Source of the DNA: Flavonifractor sp. An92 | GTDB taxonomy: Bacteria > Bacillota > Clostridia > Oscillospirales > Oscillospiraceae | Direction of reading: 5' to 3' | Length of the DNA stretch: 38,820 bases | Assembly: GCF_002159175.1 (NCBI RefSeq) | Contig: NZ_NFGZ01000027.1 | Location: 1-38,820 of the forward strand | Notes under the pieces: model-generated | The model's input: only the letters and a program-made list of their open reading frames with translations | Database searches by the model: none | Told to the model about the DNA's origin: nothing | Shown here: piece after piece, positions 28,629 through 38,820 of the stretch | Position numbering within the stretch: the first letter of the stretch is position 1 | Layout: every line of letters starts with the position of its first letter | Program-made: the position numbers and the translations under genes

Positions 28629-31944
<3,316 letters not shown>

Positions 31945-32027
31945 ATCTGTTCAGCCTTTCTGTTCTCTTGCTCACATAAAGTATCAAAGAAAGGTCCGCA
32001 CTCCTGCGCGCCGGCGCGCGGCCTCTT

Positions 32028-32864
32028 TCAATGCTTGGTGACCCGTGCGATGTGCACGGTGAGATAGAGCTCCTCTTCGCTGCCCAGGCGGTAGCCCCGT
32101 TTTTGCTCGATCAGGTCGGTGATCTCCCGGGTGCAGGCATAGGCGTCGGGGTGCTTGGCTCGGATGGCGTCCAGCAGTTCGCTGTCGTCCTCCTCGTAAT
32201 AGGAACCCAGCATCAGGCGCTGGGCGAAGAATTTCACATGGGTGATGAAGCGGTAGTAGGCCATGGAAGTGGGGTCGAACTCCATGGAGAAGTGGCGGCG
32301 CACGATGTCACACACGCTCTGGATGAGCTCGGTGACCTCGTAGACCTGGTTGATCTCCACCCCCAGCTCGGCGTTGACGAAGTGGAGGGCCAGGAAAGCG
32401 GCCTCATCCTCGGCGAAGGGGAGATCGAGGGCCTCCCGCACCGTGGCCGCGGCCTCCAGACCGGCGGCGTACTCGTCGGGGTAGTAGCGCTGGATCTCCC
32501 AGAGCATGGTGTTCTTGATGACCAGCCCATCCCGGTAGCGCTGCGCCGCCGAGTAGATGTGGTCGGTGATGGTGATATAGATGCTCTCATTCAGGGGGCC
32601 CTTGAGCCGCTTTTCCGCCTGCTGAATGATCTTTTCGCTGAGCACTGCGTAGCTCATAGGAATGCGCGCCGCCAGCTCCTGGAACCGGCCGGAGTTCTCC
32701 TCCGACAGGCGAAAGACCTGCTCCGCCCGCTGCTGGGGCACCCGGTCTCCGCTGGTGTGCTGGAAGGCGATGCCCTTGCCCATGACCACGATCTCTTTGC
32801 CCTGCTCGTCGGTGGAAACAAAGGCGTTGTTATTCAGAATGCGCCGGATGATGTAAACTCCCAC
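32028..32864 (-). CDS. licT: BglG/LicT-family transcriptional antiterminator
   Basis: A 278-residue antiterminator with an N-terminal RNA-binding CAT domain (1-56), PRD1 with H102 and H161, and PRD2 with H209 and H271. All four phosphorylatable His are at the positions expected for LicT. The GTG at 32864 is preferred: GGGAGGGG lies upstream and the product then begins MGVYIIRRILNNN. A RAT site stands in its own leader, so it controls its own operon, released by substrate through BglP and boosted by HPr. Confidence 0.95.
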   Translation of the reverse strand: MGVYIIRRILNNNAFVSTDEQGKEIVVMGKGIAFQHTSGDRVPQQRAEQVFRLSEENSGRFQELAARIPMSYAVLSEKIIQQAEKRLKGPLNESIYITITDHIYSAAQRYRDGLVIKNTMLWEIQRYYPDEYAAGLEAAATVREALDLPFAEDEAAFLALHFVNAELGVEINQVYEVTELIQSVCDIVRRHFSMEFDPTSMAYYRFITHVKFFAQRLMLGSYYEEDDSELLDAIRAKHPDAYACTREITDLIEQKRGYRLGSEEELYLTVHIARVTKH

Positions 32865-32900
32865 AGGAGCCCCTCCCTTTCCGTTTTGAAAAATGGGCGC

Positions 32901-32959
32901 AAAAAAAGCAGGCACCACAAAGAAACCTGCTCTCCAGGTTCTACTGTGGTCTTGCCTGC
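32901..32959 (-). terminator. Leader terminator overlapping the RAT
   Basis: On the minus strand GCAGGCA pairs with TGCCTGC, CCACA with TGTGG and ACCTG with CAGGT, ending in seven T (32907-32901). The first arm is shared with the RAT, so the two structures exclude each other. Confidence 0.9.
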
Positions 32960-32976
32960 ATTACCAGTGACAATCC
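32948..32976 (-). promoter_or_regulatory. RAT (ribonucleic antiterminator) site for LicT
   Basis: The minus strand carries GGATTGTCACTG, five bases, then GCAGGCAAGACC, which fits the LicT/SacY RAT consensus almost exactly. LicT binding here would block the overlapping terminator. Confidence 0.93.
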
Positions 32977-32999
32977 GTCCTCATTCAATTGCAGACCTA

Positions 33000-33028
33000 A
33001 GTATAGTCGCTTTTTCAGCGGCTGTCTA
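33000..33028 (-). promoter_or_regulatory. Promoter of the licT-bglP-bglA operon
   Basis: Minus strand -35 TAGACA (33028-33023), a 17-base spacer and -10 TATACT (33005-33000), about 24 bases upstream of the RAT. No convincing catabolite (cre) site was found. Confidence 0.78.
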
Positions 33029-33079
33029 TCCCTGTTCTATACTAAAAATAAGGTCTTTTTTTGTGCTTTTTGCCCATGC

Positions 33080-33118
33080 AAAAACGAACAGCAGCCCCCG
33101 AAGCCGGGGGCTGCTGTT
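33080..33118 (-). terminator. Terminator of the SLH-protein gene
   Basis: A 14-bp perfect stem (33087-33100 with 33105-33118) with T-run on the minus strand at 33084-33080, just past the stop of the SLH gene. Confidence 0.87.
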
Positions 33119-33143
33119 GGTTTTCCAGCGGAAGGGGGGCGCG

Positions 33144-34268
33144 TTAGCCCTCCAGCTGCTCCATGAACTGGGCCAGGATGGCGGAGCCCTCCTCGACCGT
33201 CACCGTGTCGCGGGGGGCCAGGCGGCCGTCGCCCACGTCGCCCAGGATCTCGTGCATGGTCATCCAGCACATGGCCTCATAGGCGTATTCGCTGACCTGA
33301 TCGGCATCGGTGTAGTCCAGGGGGAAGGCCCAGGCGCCGGTGAAGCCCTGGTCCTGGCTCTGGGCATAGCGGTACAGGATCACGGCCAGTTGCTCCCGGG
33401 TGATGGGGTCCTCGGGGCCGAAGGAGCCGTTGTCATAGCCGCTGACCAGCTTTTCGCTGGTGGCCCAGCGGACCGCCTCGGCGTAGTCGGCGCTCTGGTC
33501 CACATCGGGGTACTGCATGGCGTAGTTCACCACGGGAGCGCCAGCCTGCTCGTGGAGCATGGAGACCAGACCGGCCCGGGTGAGGACCTGGTCGCTCTCG
33601 GTGTCGCCCTCTTCCTCGCCGGGCAGGAGCATCAGGTGAGCGGCGTAGGCCGTGCCGGCCTCCTGCTCCGTCGACATGCCGTGCCAGGCCATGACCCGGT
33701 CGCCGGCCTGGAGCTGGGACAGGGTGAAGGTGCCGCCCTCATAGGTGGAGCAGCCGGTCTCGCCGTCGGCGGTCAGGCGCAGAGTCCCCGCATCGGTGGT
33801 GATGGTCAGGGTCTCGCCCTCCTGGGAGACGGCCTCGACCACATGGTACTGGGCGCATCCGGCGTCCATGGGGATGTTGCGCACCACGGCCAGAGCCGCG
33901 GACTGGGGCGGCAGAGACAGGGTGGCCGCCGCGCTGTGGAACACGTACACGCCCTCGCCCTCGGCCAGGTCAGCGGGGTCATCCTGGACGCGGTTGCCGC
34001 TGTCGATCCACACGGTCTCGGCGGAGAGGTGCATCACATACTCACCGTACCGCTCCGAGTCCAGCCGGAGCTGAGTGGGGACGCCATTTTCATCCCGGAT
34101 GATCTGCTGGATGGTGCCGTAGTACAGCACATAGCCGGGATTCGCCACCGTCTCCTCGGCAGAGACCGGGGCGGAGATGGGGACGGCCTGTTCGGCTGCC
34201 AAAGTGGGCAGCGCCATGGCGCAGGCCAGCGCGCCGCTGAGGATCAGGACAGGCAGTTGCTTTTTCAT
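33144..34268 (-). CDS. Exported protein with C-terminal SLH repeats
   Basis: A 374-residue secreted protein. A signal peptide (1-25, cleavage after TLAA) precedes a beta-rich region (about 40-225) containing WIDSGNRVQDDPADLAEG and no domain I recognise. The C-terminal 150 residues carry S-layer homology-type repeats (YPDVDQSADYAEAVRWA, GYDNGSFGPEDPITREQLA), which would anchor it to the cell wall. An AAGGAG site precedes the ATG. It is divergent from the metal-type ABC operon with 189 bases between. A role at the cell surface is likely; anything more specific is not supported. Confidence 0.87.
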   Translation of the reverse strand: MKKQLPVLILSGALACAMALPTLAAEQAVPISAPVSAEETVANPGYVLYYGTIQQIIRDENGVPTQLRLDSERYGEYVMHLSAETVWIDSGNRVQDDPADLAEGEGVYVFHSAAATLSLPPQSAALAVVRNIPMDAGCAQYHVVEAVSQEGETLTITTDAGTLRLTADGETGCSTYEGGTFTLSQLQAGDRVMAWHGMSTEQEAGTAYAAHLMLLPGEEEGDTESDQVLTRAGLVSMLHEQAGAPVVNYAMQYPDVDQSADYAEAVRWATSEKLVSGYDNGSFGPEDPITREQLAVILYRYAQSQDQGFTGAWAFPLDYTDADQVSEYAYEAMCWMTMHEILGDVGDGRLAPRDTVTVEEGSAILAQFMEQLEG

Positions 34269-34378: not shown

Positions 34379-34406
34379 TTGTCTTTTATGGGAAGTATGC
34401 TATAAT
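34379..34406 (+). promoter_or_regulatory. Promoter of the FecCD-type ABC operon
   Basis: -35 TTGTCT (34379-34384), a 16-base spacer and extended -10 TGC-TATAAT (34401-34406). Direct repeats GTCTAA at 34420-34425 and 34434-34439 follow, and an inverted copy TTAGAC lies at 34324-34329; these may be regulator half-sites. Confidence 0.72.
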
Positions 34407-34457
34407 TTTTACAGTTCTTGTCTAAACCGGTCCGTCTAACAGGGAGGTGGAGCAGTC

Positions 34458-35462
34458 GTGAAGCGGCGTGGTGGACGCGGTCTGCTGGGGGCGGCGCTGG
34501 TGCTGCTCCCTTTGGCGTGTATCGTCGGGAGCCTGTTCATCGGATTGTACGATCTGAGCGCGGGGGACGTGCTCACCATCCTTTTCCAGCCCCAGATGGC
34601 CCCCGCCGCCCAGGTCAGCGTGGTGTGGCAGCTGCGCCTCCCCCGCACCCTGGCCGCCGCCATGGTGGGGGGCGCGCTGTCGGTGAGCGGCGCGGCCTAC
34701 CAGGGAGTGTTCCGCAACCCGCTGGTGGACGCCGGAATGCTGGGTGTGTCCAACGGGGCGGGCTTCGGCGCGGCTTTGGCCATTGTGGCCCTGGGGGGTG
34801 GCGCGGCCATCTACCCCTGCGCCTTTCTCTTCGCCATCGGTGCGGTGCTGCTGAGCGTGCTGGCCGGGCGCATCGCCGGGTCGGCCACCAATCTGACTCT
34901 GATCCTGGGCGGTGTCATCATCTCCGCCTTTTTCAGCGCCTTTACCTCTATCTTAAAGTACATCGCCGACCCCTATTCCCAGCTGCCCGCCATCACCTTC
35001 TGGTTCATGGGCAGCTTCGCCGACGTCCACTACCGCCATTTTATCGCCTTCCTGCCCATGGGTCTGGGGATGCTGCTGGTGCTGCTGTGCCGGTGGCAGA
35101 TCAACGTGCTCTCCATGGGGGACCGGGAGGCAGCCGCCCTGGGAGTGGACCTGGGGCGGTACAAGCTCCTGCTGGTAGGGGGCGCCACCCTGGCCACCGC
35201 CTCGGCGGTGTGCATCAGCGGGGTCATCAGCTGGGTGGGGCTGGTGGTGCCCCACATCTGCCGGATGCTCTTCGGAAACGACAACCGCCGCCTCATCGCG
35301 GCCAGCCTCTCTCTGGGTGCCTCCTTCCTGGTGGTGATGGACGTGCTGGCCCGGACCCTCAGCACCGCCGAGATCCCGGTGGGCATCCTCACCGCCCTGG
35401 TGGGCACCCCCTTCTTTATCTTTCTTCTGAAGCGGACGAGAGGGGGCGGCTGGAGTGAGTGA
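34458..35462 (+). CDS. FecCD/BtuC-type ABC transporter permease
   Basis: A 334-residue inner-membrane protein with eight to ten membrane helices. Family marks are RLPRTLAAAMVGGALSVSGAAYQG, RNPLVDAGMLGVSNGAG and GVISWVGLVVPHICRML. Such permeases import iron-siderophores, haem, cobalamin or oxyanions such as molybdate. The GTG start follows GGGAGG. It overlaps the ATPase gene by eight bases. The operon carries unusual downstream genes, so the cargo may not be a standard siderophore. Confidence 0.94.
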   Translation: MKRRGGRGLLGAALVLLPLACIVGSLFIGLYDLSAGDVLTILFQPQMAPAAQVSVVWQLRLPRTLAAAMVGGALSVSGAAYQGVFRNPLVDAGMLGVSNGAGFGAALAIVALGGGAAIYPCAFLFAIGAVLLSVLAGRIAGSATNLTLILGGVIISAFFSAFTSILKYIADPYSQLPAITFWFMGSFADVHYRHFIAFLPMGLGMLLVLLCRWQINVLSMGDREAAALGVDLGRYKLLLVGGATLATASAVCISGVISWVGLVVPHICRMLFGNDNRRLIAASLSLGASFLVVMDVLARTLSTAEIPVGILTALVGTPFFIFLLKRTRGGGWSE

Positions 35463-36261
35463 GCTGCTGCGCCTGGAGGGGCTGAGCTGCGGCTACGGCG
35501 CGCCCCTCTTCCGGGACCTCTCCCTGGCGGTGGACCGCGGGAAGATCCTCTGCCTCATGGGCCCCAACGGCTGCGGAAAGAGCACTCTTTTGAACACGGT
35601 CCTGGGGCTCCAGCGCCCCCTGGCCGGGCGGGTGCTGCTGGAGGGACGGGACGTGAAAACGTGCTCCCGGCGGGAGATCGCCCGGGTGCTGGCCCTGGTG
35701 CCCCAGCGGCACCAGCCCATGTTCCCCTATACGGTGCGCCAGGTGGTGCTCATGGGCCGCACCGCCCACCTCTCCCTCTTTTCCGGCCCCACGGAGGCGG
35801 ACGAGGCTATGTGCGACGCCGCGCTGGAGCAGGTGGGGCTGCTGCACCTGGCCGAGGCCCCCTACCACCAGCTCTCCGGCGGGGAATTGCAGCTGGTGCT
35901 GCTGGCCCGGGCGGTGGGGCAGCAGACTCCGCTGTTGCTGCTGGACGAGCCCACCGCCCATCTGGACCTGCGCAACGAGCTGCTCTTTCTGGAGACGGTG
36001 TCCCGCCTGGTCCGGGAGCGGCACATCGGTGTCCTCATGGCCACCCACGACCCGGACCACGCCTTTTACCTGGAGGAAGAGGGGTTACCGGTCACCGCCG
36101 CCCTCATCGCCAACGGGGGGCTCTTTGCCGCCGGACCGCCGGCGGAGACCCTGACGCCCCCCACTCTGGCCCAGGTCTATGGGGTGGAGGCCGCAGTGCT
36201 GGAGGGGCGCGTCCCCGGACAGCCCACGCTGCGGCGCATCGCCCCCCGACACATTCTCTGA
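35455..36261 (+). CDS. FecE/BtuD-type ABC transporter ATPase
   Basis: A 268-residue ATPase with Walker A GPNGCGKS (36-43), Q-loop VPQRH, signature LSGGELQLV and Walker B LLLLDEPTAHLDL, followed by the switch His in MATHDPDH. It starts with GTG inside the permease gene and is followed 13 bases later by the binding-protein gene. It energises the importer. Confidence 0.94.
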   Translation: MSELLRLEGLSCGYGAPLFRDLSLAVDRGKILCLMGPNGCGKSTLLNTVLGLQRPLAGRVLLEGRDVKTCSRREIARVLALVPQRHQPMFPYTVRQVVLMGRTAHLSLFSGPTEADEAMCDAALEQVGLLHLAEAPYHQLSGGELQLVLLARAVGQQTPLLLLDEPTAHLDLRNELLFLETVSRLVRERHIGVLMATHDPDHAFYLEEEGLPVTAALIANGGLFAAGPPAETLTPPTLAQVYGVEAAVLEGRVPGQPTLRRIAPRHIL

Positions 36262-36274
36262 GGAGGAAACCGGC

Positions 36275-37366
36275 ATGAAACAGCTGCGCACGTCTGCCCT
36301 TTGCCTGCTGCTCTGTCTGACCCTGCTGTGCGCCTGTGCCCCCACGGGAAAGCAGCAGGGCCCCGGCACTACCGAGACCCAGTCGGTCACCGATCTGGTG
36401 GGCCGGACGGTGGAAATTCCCAAGGAGCCCGCCTGCATCTGCGCCTTGGACCCCTTCTGCGCCCCCTTTGTGGTGGCCTTCGGCTACGGGGAGCAGGTGA
36501 AGGCCACCATTCCCTCCATCCAGCGGGATGTGCTCATCCAGTCCATCTGCCCCTCCCTCAAGGAGGCGGAGGTGGTGAAGAGCGGCGGTGTGGTCAACGC
36601 CGAGGCCCTGCTGAGCCTGGGAGTGGACCTGATCCTGCTGGACCGGGAGAGCTACGACGACCCGGACAGCCGGGCTAAGCTGGACGCCACCGGCATTCCC
36701 TACCTGGTGGTGGGCAACGCCACCATCGACGAGGCGCTGGAGGCGGTAGCCCTGGTGGGGGAGGTGCTCCACGCCGACGAGGAGGCGGAGCAGTACATCA
36801 CCTGGTACCGGGACTGTCTGGACCGGGCCGAGACGGTCAGCGCCGCCATCCCGGAGGAGGAGCGGCCCCGCCTCTACCACTCGGTGAACGAGGCGGTGCG
36901 CACCGACTACGCCGGGAGCCTTCCCGCCCAGTGGATCGCCGCCACCGGCGCGGAGAATGTCTCGCTGGAGGGCGGCCTCACCATGGAGGGGGGCAGCGCC
37001 TACACCACCCTGGAGCAGATCTTCGTCTGGGACCCGGACCTCATCATCTGTAACGAGGTTGGAGTGGCCGACTACATCCTCACCGATGAGAAGTGGAAGG
37101 GCCTGGGGGCCGTGGAGCGGGGCGATGTGTACCAGATGCCCATCGGCCTGAGCCGCTGGGGCCACCCCAACAGCATCGAGACTCCCCTGGCGGTGCTGTG
37201 GCTCACCGAGCTTCTCTACCCGGAGGAGTCCGACATCGACCTGGAAAAGGAGACCCGGGACTTTTATCAGACCTATTTTGACTATACGATCAGCGACGAG
37301 GAACTGGATGCGGTCCTGTCCGGCGATGGGATGCGCACCCCTAAGACCGGCGGAAAGGTGGAATGA
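36275..37366 (+). CDS. ABC transporter substrate-binding lipoprotein, TroA/BtuF fold
   Basis: A 363-residue exported lipoprotein with lipobox LCAC (lipid-bearing C21). It has the helical-backbone fold of iron-chelate, cobalamin and molybdate-type binding proteins: VTDLVGRTVEIPKEP at the start and SGGVVNAEALLSLGVDLILLD in the first lobe. The ATG at 36275 is chosen for the GAGGAGGAAA site; the open frame runs further upstream. C-terminal residues after about 320 are acidic and unlike usual siderophore binders. The ligand is unknown. Confidence 0.9.
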   Translation: MKQLRTSALCLLLCLTLLCACAPTGKQQGPGTTETQSVTDLVGRTVEIPKEPACICALDPFCAPFVVAFGYGEQVKATIPSIQRDVLIQSICPSLKEAEVVKSGGVVNAEALLSLGVDLILLDRESYDDPDSRAKLDATGIPYLVVGNATIDEALEAVALVGEVLHADEEAEQYITWYRDCLDRAETVSAAIPEEERPRLYHSVNEAVRTDYAGSLPAQWIAATGAENVSLEGGLTMEGGSAYTTLEQIFVWDPDLIICNEVGVADYILTDEKWKGLGAVERGDVYQMPIGLSRWGHPNSIETPLAVLWLTELLYPEESDIDLEKETRDFYQTYFDYTISDEELDAVLSGDGMRTPKTGGKVE

Positions 37367-37369
37367 GCT

Positions 37370-38116
37370 GTGGAAGAGAAGCTGCTGCTTTGCATTGATG
37401 ACACCGACACTCTGGACTCTCCCGGCACCGGCGAGGTGCTGGACACGCTGCTGGCCGCCCTGGCGGAGGAGGGCCTGGGACAGGGCTCCTTCATCACCCG
37501 GCACCAGCTGCTGGTCCACCCCGACATCCCCTACACCTCCCACAACAGCTCCATGTGTACCCAGGTGTGCACCGGCGACGGGGTGGGCGTGATCGCCTTT
37601 GCCCGCGCTTTTCTGGAGCGGACCTGGGTCCCCGGCTCCGACCCGGGGCTGTGCGCGGTATTTCCGGAGCGTTTGGCGGACCCGGCGGGATTGCTGGCCT
37701 TCGGTCAGGCGGCCAAGGAGCGGGTCCTCACCAAGGACGACGCCCGGGCCCTGGCGGAACGGGAACCGGAGGGGATCTTCCTCTCGGAGCACGGCGGCAC
37801 CGGGCAGGGCATCATCGGCGCGCTGGCCGGGTGCGGCCTGCGCCTGAGCGGGACCGACGGCCGCTGCCGGGGCAAGCTCTACCCCAGCGCAGTGGGGGAG
37901 AGCCTCACCGCTGCGGAGCTCATCGCCCGGGGCGGCGTGGACTGTGTGGCCGACCCGGAGGGGAAGGTTCTCCCCGGCGACACCCCGCTGGTCTTTGCCC
38001 GGCCCTGCAAGGCGGTGTTCCGCCGCGGCCTGCGCCTGGCGGTGGCGAAGCCCCGGCCCGACGGGGCCTGGGAGCTGCTGGCCAAGCAGGACCTGCCGGA
38101 GGTGTTTCTGGTATGA
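37370..38116 (+). CDS. TiaS N-domain-like protein in ABC operon
   Basis: A 248-residue soluble protein. Its N-terminus (LLLCIDDTDTLDSPGTGEV, DDTD at 10-13) resembles the DDTD motif of the kinase domain of archaeal TiaS, which phosphorylates C34 of tRNA-Ile2 before agmatine transfer. The TiaS OB-fold and Zn-ribbon are absent, and bacteria normally use TilS for that tRNA, so a different, ATP-using role tied to the transported compound is more likely (inference). The GTG start lies three bases after the binding-protein stop, and the stop overlaps the next start. Confidence 0.7.
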   Translation: MEEKLLLCIDDTDTLDSPGTGEVLDTLLAALAEEGLGQGSFITRHQLLVHPDIPYTSHNSSMCTQVCTGDGVGVIAFARAFLERTWVPGSDPGLCAVFPERLADPAGLLAFGQAAKERVLTKDDARALAEREPEGIFLSEHGGTGQGIIGALAGCGLRLSGTDGRCRGKLYPSAVGESLTAAELIARGGVDCVADPEGKVLPGDTPLVFARPCKAVFRRGLRLAVAKPRPDGAWELLAKQDLPEVFLV

Positions 38117-38325
38117 GCGGCTCTTTTGAACATACCCCGGCGGGGCGGACCTTCCGCTTCGGCCGCCACGCCCCGGAGGAGGCCCGGGCGGCGGTGTGCG
38201 CCCAGTACCGTCGGGACGACGAGGAGGAGACGGAGGACGACACCGTCTCCTGCTACAACTGCCGCTACCGGCGCTGGACCGTGGAGTCCTTCGTCTGTAT
38301 GCGGAAAGGAGAGGAAGAGACATGA
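38113..38325 (+). CDS. Small Cys-motif protein of unknown function
   Basis: A 70-residue protein, not recognised. The first half is charged with C29. The second half holds C47-Y-N-C50 and C62 in the segment CYNCRYRRWT...FVC, which could bind a metal with C29 or join a partner. It has no signal peptide or membrane helix. It overlaps both neighbours by ATGA, so its translation is coupled to the TiaS-like gene and to the exported protein gene, arguing for a shared task. Confidence 0.7.
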   Translation: MSGSFEHTPAGRTFRFGRHAPEEARAAVCAQYRRDDEEETEDDTVSCYNCRYRRWTVESFVCMRKGEEET

Positions 38326-38820
38326 GACGTGCGCTTTTCGCCCTGCTGGCAGCGCTATGCCTGCTGACCACCGCCGCCTCGGCGGAGGACGGGGCGGGCA
38401 AGGCCCAGCCCCTGGCCCTCAGCAGCAGCAGCGTGGCCGACGGAGCCACCAATGTGGCGGCGGACACCGCCATTCGCCTGGATTTCACCAAGAACGTGGT
38501 GAATCTGACGGTGAAGGACAACAATAAGACCTGCTTCTCGGTCACCGACTCCACCGGCGCGGCGGTGCCCATCGTGGTGAGCATGGGGGACGACCAGGTG
38601 GACCGGGACGTGCGCAATACCATCTACGTCTCACCGGCCCAGGCGTGGCCGGCGGGGGAGACCCTGACCCTCACCATCTCAGGGGATCTGATGGCCAAGA
38701 ACGGCACCTCTATGGGCACCGCCGCGCCGGTGGAGTCGGTGACCGAGAAGCAGGTCTTATTGTTGTCCTTCACCGTCAGATTCACCACGTTCTTGGTGAA
38801 ATCCAGGCGAATGGCGGTGT
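38322..38820 (+). CDS. Exported Ig-like (Big_5-type) protein, 3' part disrupted
   Basis: Begins with a signal peptide (1-21, cleavage near ASA) and continues with an Ig-like domain of the SbsA type (SSSVADGATNVAADTAIRLDF, then the LTISGDLMAKNG segment near 120-132). From about 38712 the reading frame runs through an inverted copy of its own upstream sequence, so the residues after about 130 (EKQVLLLSFTVR) are antisense-derived and not a real domain. The gene has no stop inside the window. Either an assembly fold-back or a true inversion explains this. Confidence 0.65.
   Translation, partial: MRRALFALLAALCLLTTAASAEDGAGKAQPLALSSSSVADGATNVAADTAIRLDFTKNVVNLTVKDNNKTCFSVTDSTGAAVPIVVSMGDDQVDRDVRNTIYVSPAQAWPAGETLTLTISGDLMAKNGTSMGTAAPVESVTEKQVLLLSFTVRFTTFLVKSRRMAV
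38464..38572 (+). repeat. Left arm of perfect 109-bp inverted repeat
   Basis: Read base by base, 38464-38572 is the exact reverse complement of 38712-38820. The 139 bases between the arms are unique. The left arm lies in the reading frame of the Ig-like protein and is therefore the original. Confidence 0.93.
38712..38820 (-). repeat. Right arm of perfect 109-bp inverted repeat
   Basis: The exact inverse copy of 38464-38572, running to the last base of the window; the repeat may continue beyond it. Absence of any mismatch over 109 bases suggests a very recent event or a fold-back assembly artefact. Confidence 0.93.

Follow-up and report, generated by a model that had tools for sequence, protein, structure and literature searches.

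The stretch of DNA analyzed here (hereafter the window) is a complete contig of 38,820 nucleotides (contig C20 of 60 in a 3.49-Mb genome assembly) from Flavonifractor sp. An92 (NZ_NFGZ01000027.1), a gut-type bacterium. Close to its right-hand end, six tightly packed genes run on the plus strand from position 34458, and the reading of open reading frames together with Pfam matches confirmed that they form an operon. They encode a FecCD-type permease (34458-35462; Pfam FecCD, E 3.9e-83), the ABC ATPase of the importer (35455-36261; ABC_tran, E 2.6e-31), a substrate-binding lipoprotein (SBP; 36275-37366; Peripla_BP_2, E 4.2e-12), a 248-amino-acid protein with a GTG start that resembles the kinase domain (TCKD) of the archaeal enzyme TiaS as a stand-alone unit (TiaSL; 37370-38116), a 70-amino-acid protein with four invariant cysteines (CysP; 38113-38325), and the 5' part of an exported Ig-like Big_5 protein (38322-38704; Pfam Big_5, E 4.8e-10). 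The permease and ATPase genes overlap by 8 nt, gaps of 13 nt and 3 nt separate the ATPase from the SBP and the SBP stop from TiaSL, and the TiaSL/CysP and CysP/Big_5 joints are 4-nt ATGA overlaps. An earlier note, made from the sequence alone, had taken such joints and ATGA couplings as a sign that these genes act together. The joints were confirmed and the order FecCD-ATPase-SBP-TiaSL recurs in relatives, hence the arrangement is not due to chance. The Big_5 gene is not whole: an inverted repeat of 116 nt (98% complementary; 38464-38579 and 38705-38820) closes the contig and is most simply explained as an assembly fold-back, so that the sequence beyond approximately 38704 is unreliable and the Big_5 gene is incomplete.

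To characterize the TiaSL family, 61 of 85 TiaSL reading frames were combined with the window protein into a profile of 62 proteins (A3). This profile matched four distinct PDB sequences of TiaS (E 1.9e-9 to 4.1e-9), always over residues 1-157, and Pfam PF22641 (TCKD) matched 35 of the 62 members at E 0.01. The AlphaFold2 model of TiaSL reached a predicted local distance difference test (pLDDT) score of 94.6. When it was compared with known structures by Foldseek, as the earlier note had proposed, eight matches fell below 1e-3, every one of them TiaS (E 4e-9) and none from an unrelated family, followed by HPPK (pterin pyrophosphokinase; E 6e-3 to 8e-3) and GlnK/PII (E ~1e-2). The claim that the protein resembles the kinase part of TiaS only was thereby borne out. 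In the profile alignment the DDTD motif and a GxGxxGALA loop are common to both families, and T20 of TiaSL aligns to Thr18 of TiaS, which we take to be the autophosphorylated residue. Across the 62 proteins D10-D13 (DDTD) are invariant and T20 is nearly so; a total of 26 columns are invariant, R44, Q46, H58, and H141 among them. The invariant residues specific to the family include R44, Q46, Y55-S60, and H141, although N59 within this set is common to TiaS. A kinase or adenylyltransferase activity is therefore suggested by fold and motifs.

TiaS itself is the archaeal tRNA-Ile2 agmatidine synthetase, and the likeness to it comprises the fold, the DDTD motif, the Thr18 counterpart, and the loop. 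TiaSL differs in matching the kinase domain only, in its own set of invariant residues, in being found in bacteria, and in lying often near genes of molybdenum or tungsten (Mo/W) metabolism. We also considered that TiaSL modifies RNA as TiaS does, which would be in keeping with homology over the kinase domain. However, the match stops at residue 157, leaving the further parts of full-length TiaS (the agmatine-binding and OB domains) without a counterpart, and the neighbors seen are metal genes. Moreover, the host genome encodes its own TilS (192 bits), so agmatidine is not needed, in line with the statement of the earlier note that bacteria do not normally need the archaeal enzyme. RNA modification is accordingly highly improbable, and on the basis of profiles and predicted structure we regard TiaSL as related to the kinase domain of TiaS but not as a TiaS itself. 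A further relative is methanogenesis marker protein 11 (TIGR03280), a family that to our knowledge is restricted to methanogens: 60 of the 62 TiaSL members match it at E <=0.01 (best 1.6e-17), but the window protein scores 27.8 bits (E 1.3e-6), far below the NCBIfam cut-off of 255.8, and its match starts only at position 133 of the 292 profile positions. At two loci (L074:6181-8449 and L075:7995-10307) three TiaSL genes stand in tandem, the middle one with an altered DDTD motif (IDDSLQLDGG), as if its product were a non-catalytic subunit.

Scanning of species genomes yielded at least 308 stretches encoding a TiaSL relative, and the 80 best loci among them were retained. Within the family of the window, searched with the single protein at E 1e-3, TiaSL was found in 12 of 200 genomes (including that of the window), and within the class, searched with profile A3 at E 1e-20, in 12 of 381. 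The tree of 62 proteins spans at least seven phyla, namely Bacillota, Thermodesulfobacteriota, Myxococcota, Pseudomonadota, Chloroflexota, Actinomycetota, and Kiritimatiellota. A haloarchaeal, unannotated TiaSL is encoded on a plasmid of Natribaculum luteum (L013:5827-6582), adjoining a divergent SBP-permease-ATPase operon whose SBP and permease match the importer profiles described below (A4 and A5, respectively). A 3820-bp plasmid record of Pimelobacter simplex, a small circle that may be an assembly product, also holds a TiaSL relative annotated as a hypothetical protein (L014:1441-2178). No TiaSL relative was retrieved in one scan of viral contigs that used the single protein.

CysP lies no more than 300 nt from TiaSL in 52 of the 80 loci and was the best match in 53. 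Alignment of 43 CysP frames with the window protein (A6, 44 proteins) revealed four invariant cysteines, C29, C47, C50, and C62 in its own numbering. At two loci the Cys motif is fused to the C-terminus of TiaSL (L011:1324-2253 and L012:1495-2364). The CysP of the window belongs to no Pfam family, six Pfam families matching weakly and each only one or two of the 44 members, and neither a PDB relative of the CysP profile nor a CysP match on plasmids was found. Since the predicted model was also modest (pLDDT 74), a zinc-ribbon fold, although considered, is not claimed. Relatives of the Big_5 protein occur in 34 of the 80 loci. At three loci (L063:99-665, L181:4394-4873, and L187:78-665) the position ahead of the permease that Big_5 otherwise holds is occupied by a gene of a small protein family, one of whose members matches Oxidored_molyb.

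The importer was compared with solved structures through two further profiles, one of 35 of 41 SBP frames and one of 24 of 39 FecCD frames, each with the window protein added (A4 and A5). The permease profile scored 320 bits against MolB (HI1471; 2nq2), compared with 216 against HmuU and 172-174 against BtuC. MolB is thus the closest solved relative of the FecCD permease, as befits an importer of the MolBCA type. For the SBP profile the top match was 4ovk (177 bits), followed by MolA (3psa, 162 bits), with BtuF at only ~32 bits. MolBCA (HI1470-1472) is a type II molybdate/tungstate importer, to which the window operon adds the TiaSL, CysP, and Big_5 genes; we know of no TiaS-like gene in the MolBCA operon of H. 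influenzae. Homology and context suggest such a substrate for the window importer as well. TupABC, WtpABC, and ModABC are likewise ABC importers of Mo/W oxyanions, and TupA-like genes lie near TiaSL in 10 of the 80 loci; their permeases and binding proteins belong to other families than those of the window importer. In the passages concerned, MolA is described as binding both molybdate and tungstate (PMC4031551), and TupABC, WtpABC, and ModABC are the only W/Mo uptake systems named in a recent account (PMC11980592). Judging from these matches, the window importer looks like an additional, MolBCA-like one. Because FecCD and Peripla_BP_2 are generic families, and because the top-scoring NCBIfam permease matches are BtuC models (all far below cut-off), an ordinary iron-siderophore, haem, or cobalamin transporter with a hitch-hiking tungsten link has also to be weighed. 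The MolB match speaks against it, as do the Mo/W neighbors, riboswitches, and tungstoenzyme co-occurrence reported below, so that this already disfavored reading is very unlikely.

Next to TiaSL, 40 of the 80 loci showed a FecCD importer; 15 had no FecCD but an ECF importer, and 25 had neither, many contigs being short. An SBP is present in 39. The expectation of the earlier note that homologues lie beside FecCD-type genes therefore held for half of the loci. Among the 12 loci of the window's family (L001-L012), an SBP relative adjoins TiaSL in 11, the contig of the twelfth (L005) ending too early. MolB, ATPase, SBP, and TiaSL are all present in each of nine further loci (L179-L187), which represent 8 of the 11 other TiaSL-positive genomes of the class and genome G028, with three genomes of fragmentary or edge matches (G518, G578, and G633) left out. 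Placed on the TiaSL tree, the labels FecCD, ECF, and neither (the last including cut contigs) require 14 changes, with 3 or 4 at the least for each label being forced by well-supported branches. TiaSL is thus not tied to a single transporter, which suggests a role after import, and it probably acts at that stage.

The neighborhoods also pointed to the cargo. Genes of eight Mo/W families (covering Moa, Moe, Mob, MOSC, Tup, and Mo storage) lie near TiaSL in 22 of the 80 loci and in none of 80 random control regions, taken four apiece from 20 long contigs that also hold TiaSL loci. The count remained at 22 when queries from the same locus were excluded, and on the 20 contigs that supplied the controls it was 6 of 20 TiaSL loci. 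This comparison should be read bearing in mind that control regions averaged 16.7 kb and loci 13.3 kb, and that the eight families were picked after the loci had been inspected. On one contig, L053, a single strand carries two Big_5 genes followed by FecCD, ATPase, SBP, TiaSL, TupA, TupB, ATPase, MoaA, MoaC, MOSC, and MobB. One neighboring AA-kinase gene tested encodes a relative of the Mo storage protein (E ~1e-75). AA-kinase genes of this molybdenum-storage-protein cluster, of which one member was checked, occur at L022:12409-13506, L051:4715-5830, and L083:13052-14136, in each case adjoining an uncharacterized protein of ~80 amino acids and a few kb from TiaSL.

TonB-type receptors were found in 19 of the 80 loci. 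An ECF-type importer stands with such a receptor beside TiaSL at L046:5220-7982, and similarly at L021, L026, L028, L037, L050, L068, and L070; it consists of an ATPase with two ABC domains (where checked), EcfT, and a ~190-amino-acid membrane protein that in two examples had no Pfam or NCBIfam match. From its setting, this importer could possibly carry Mo/W or their cofactor. FecCD, ECF, and TonB-dependent systems often transport organic cofactors, which raises the alternative of an organic cargo for these importers (such as a pterin, a tungsten chelate, or a metal-pterin cofactor), with TiaSL as a salvage kinase that would phosphorylate the cargo as it enters. The receptors, the position of HPPK as the closest fold after TiaS, and the exported Oxidored_molyb protein that takes the place of Big_5 in some operons would fit this alternative. 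On the other hand, the HPPK match is weak, the permease fits MolB best, with a lead of ~100 bits, and MolA ranks second for the SBP. We therefore consider organic cargo unlikely, and uptake of a Mo/W oxyanion the better account. The earlier note had left the choice between a metal chelate and an oxyanion; the oxyanion is supported, in the form of Mo/W with tungsten favored, and the metal chelate is less favored.

Rfam scans covered the window, 28 of the 80 survey loci, the nine further loci, and 8 of the 80 control regions. In 14 of the 37 TiaSL loci covered, 22 elements of the Moco/Tuco riboswitch (RF01055) were detected; 9 of these loci are among the 28 from the survey and 5 among the further nine. 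None turned up in the 8 control regions, which came from three of the genomes. No cobalamin riboswitch reached the gathering score in these 37 loci, a further point against an ordinary cobalamin transporter. In 12 of the 14 loci an element lies a short way upstream of the TiaSL operon, as we read its extent. In L186 the element heads a longer same-strand run of frames leading into the operon, and in L184 it sits between TiaSL-CysP and the importer genes; elsewhere, three elements follow the operon in a row in L029 and one precedes TupA in L053. An element also precedes the small gene that stands in for Big_5 in L033 and L181. Stem P3 is deleted in all 11 aligned elements (from five loci), and the other 11 of the 22, at 116-122 nt versus 135 in the model, have the same P3-less look by eye. 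In this respect the 14 loci resemble the Moco/Tuco riboswitch regulon, with P3 absent wherever elements were aligned; the window has no such element. In the passages on such elements, those lacking P3 are associated with the use of the tungsten cofactor (Regulski et al. 2008, PMC2408646), hence their prevalence among the aligned elements favors tungsten over molybdenum. The same passages refer to an S. wolfei operon that has three P3-lacking elements and holds other genes whose function is unknown, and they mention no FecCD importer; TiaS as a word is absent from the paper.

Members of the AFOR family are mostly tungstoenzymes. In the class (381 genomes), AFOR was found in 12 of 12 TiaSL-positive and 38 of 369 TiaSL-negative genomes (p 7e-12; 6e-11 with 11 of 11 when the window's own genome is excluded), the 50 AFOR-positive genomes including one weak fragment (G564, E 1e-6); these and the following p-values are from one-sided Fisher tests that ignore relatedness, and kinship among genomes inflates them. 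In the family, with the window genome counted, the figures were 9 of 12 versus 37 of 188 (p 1e-4). MoaC was a weaker correlate there (11 of 12 versus 100 of 188, p 0.008), and among MoaC-positive genomes only the AFOR link was weaker yet present (8 of 11 versus 31 of 100, p 0.009). The window genome is AFOR-positive, while its two sampled congeners have neither AFOR nor TiaSL, though both have MoaC. The survey genomes, which covered 50 of the 80 loci, gave AFOR in 44 of 50. An AFOR gene lies within ~5 kb of TiaSL in L179 (contig C65 of G028) and on contig C42 of G492.

Together, the MolB/MolA match, the Mo/W neighbors, and the Moco/Tuco riboswitches in relatives make a Mo/W role of the operon very probable. 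Within this role, tungsten rather than molybdenum is the likely metal, on account of the P3-lacking riboswitches and the AFOR co-occurrence. Our overall reading, that the operon serves Mo/W assimilation and that TiaSL acts once import is complete, is likewise probable. Several observations weigh against it. FecCD is absent from 40 of the 80 loci, and 58 of 80 hold no Mo/W gene of the eight families. No riboswitch was found in 23 of the 37 loci scanned, nor in the window or its near relatives L015 and L017. The top SBP match, 4ovk, is not named as Mo/W-binding. Single-sequence searches with TiaSL gave no significant match to TiaS (Pfam TiaS_TCKD 0.15, below the cut-off; PDB 3l7v 0.084), being too weak, so that profiles were needed. 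AFOR was not matched in 3 of the 12 TiaSL-positive genomes of the family (G075, G130, and G191) or found in 6 of the 50 survey genomes; it also occurs without TiaSL, the E. coli control included, and some enzymes of the family may use molybdenum, according to a passage in PMC13328260. Finally, 16 of 23 TiaSL-positive genomes (the window's own included) encode TupA-like proteins, although none of the TupA-like matches passes the curated cut-off. The idea that the operon replaces TupABC was dropped, since TupA-like proteins occur in these 16 and in 31 of 38 AFOR-positive, TiaSL-negative genomes; two genomes that are both 99% complete and positive for AFOR and TiaSL (G118 and G182) had no TupA-like match.

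In the mechanism that we propose, the lipoprotein would bind tungstate or molybdate outside the cell, and the MolBC-like permease and ATPase would import the oxyanion; homology and genomic context support this import part well. In the cytoplasm, TiaSL would then use ATP to act on either the metal just imported or the pterin cofactor that is to carry it, with CysP as a partner that probably holds metal, and the two would feed the tungsten cofactor (Tuco). We infer the identity of the substrate, the use of ATP, the cytoplasmic action, and the step catalyzed, the ATP-using step from the fold, the motifs, and the frequent company of CysP; the HPPK fold neighbor offers a weak hint at a pterin substrate. 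A specific ATP-using, cofactor-feeding step is put forward only tentatively. The main rival is that TiaSL is a regulator, namely a kinase or PII-like sensor that binds nucleotide and, in response to the tungsten status, phosphorylates a protein, be it the importer, CysP, or a Moco/Tuco enzyme. GlnK/PII is indeed among the distant fold neighbors and TiaSL accompanies different importers. However, the GlnK matches are far weaker than those to TiaS, the 26 invariant columns (R44, Q46, H58, and H141 included) read as a dedicated small-substrate site, and in some loci a Tuco-type riboswitch already senses the status, which leaves regulation as a rather doubtful explanation. Returning to a role in assimilation, a bolder version of it, itself on the unlikely side, is that TiaSL and CysP perform an unrecognized ATP-dependent step of Tuco assembly, as a kinase or nucleotidyl transferase that activates tungstate or the pterin carrier. 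If so, the cell would have a tungsten branch separate from molybdenum insertion by MogA/MoeA, and methanogenesis marker protein 11, as a distant relative, would have the equivalent function in methanogens, organisms that rely on W/Mo formylmethanofuran dehydrogenases.

How tungsten is chosen over molybdenum and loaded into its cofactor is a question that is not settled. In the samples examined TiaSL is statistically tied to tungsten genes, and it may be a missing part of tungsten use: a conserved, apparently unstudied, predicted nucleotide-using kinase fold with a four-cysteine partner, and thus a testable candidate. These findings also give a hint on methanogenesis marker protein 11, and imply that some FecCD operons taken as iron transporters may be tungstate/molybdate importers. 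Word searches of open-licence PMC literature yielded, among the matches listed, no account in which TiaSL and CysP regularly accompany tungsten genes. In the passages concerned, recent tungsten papers discuss Tup, Wtp, or Mod importers, Tub storage, or WorX (PMC11980592, PMC13328260, and PMC9424855), and TiaS as a word is absent from their main texts.

Ahead of the operon, a consensus scan picked out a promoter-like site on the plus strand (34379-34406; TTGTCT-N16-TATAAT with the TG of an extended -10), which matches 10 of 12 positions and is a candidate by sequence pattern; it starts at the first position that the earlier note gives for this region. Further upstream, the minus strand (28629-34268) encodes an SLH-domain exported protein (33144-34268) and a PRD antiterminator (32028-32918), both assigned by Pfam, and around them, read by eye, an apparent PTS transporter and a beta-glucosidase.

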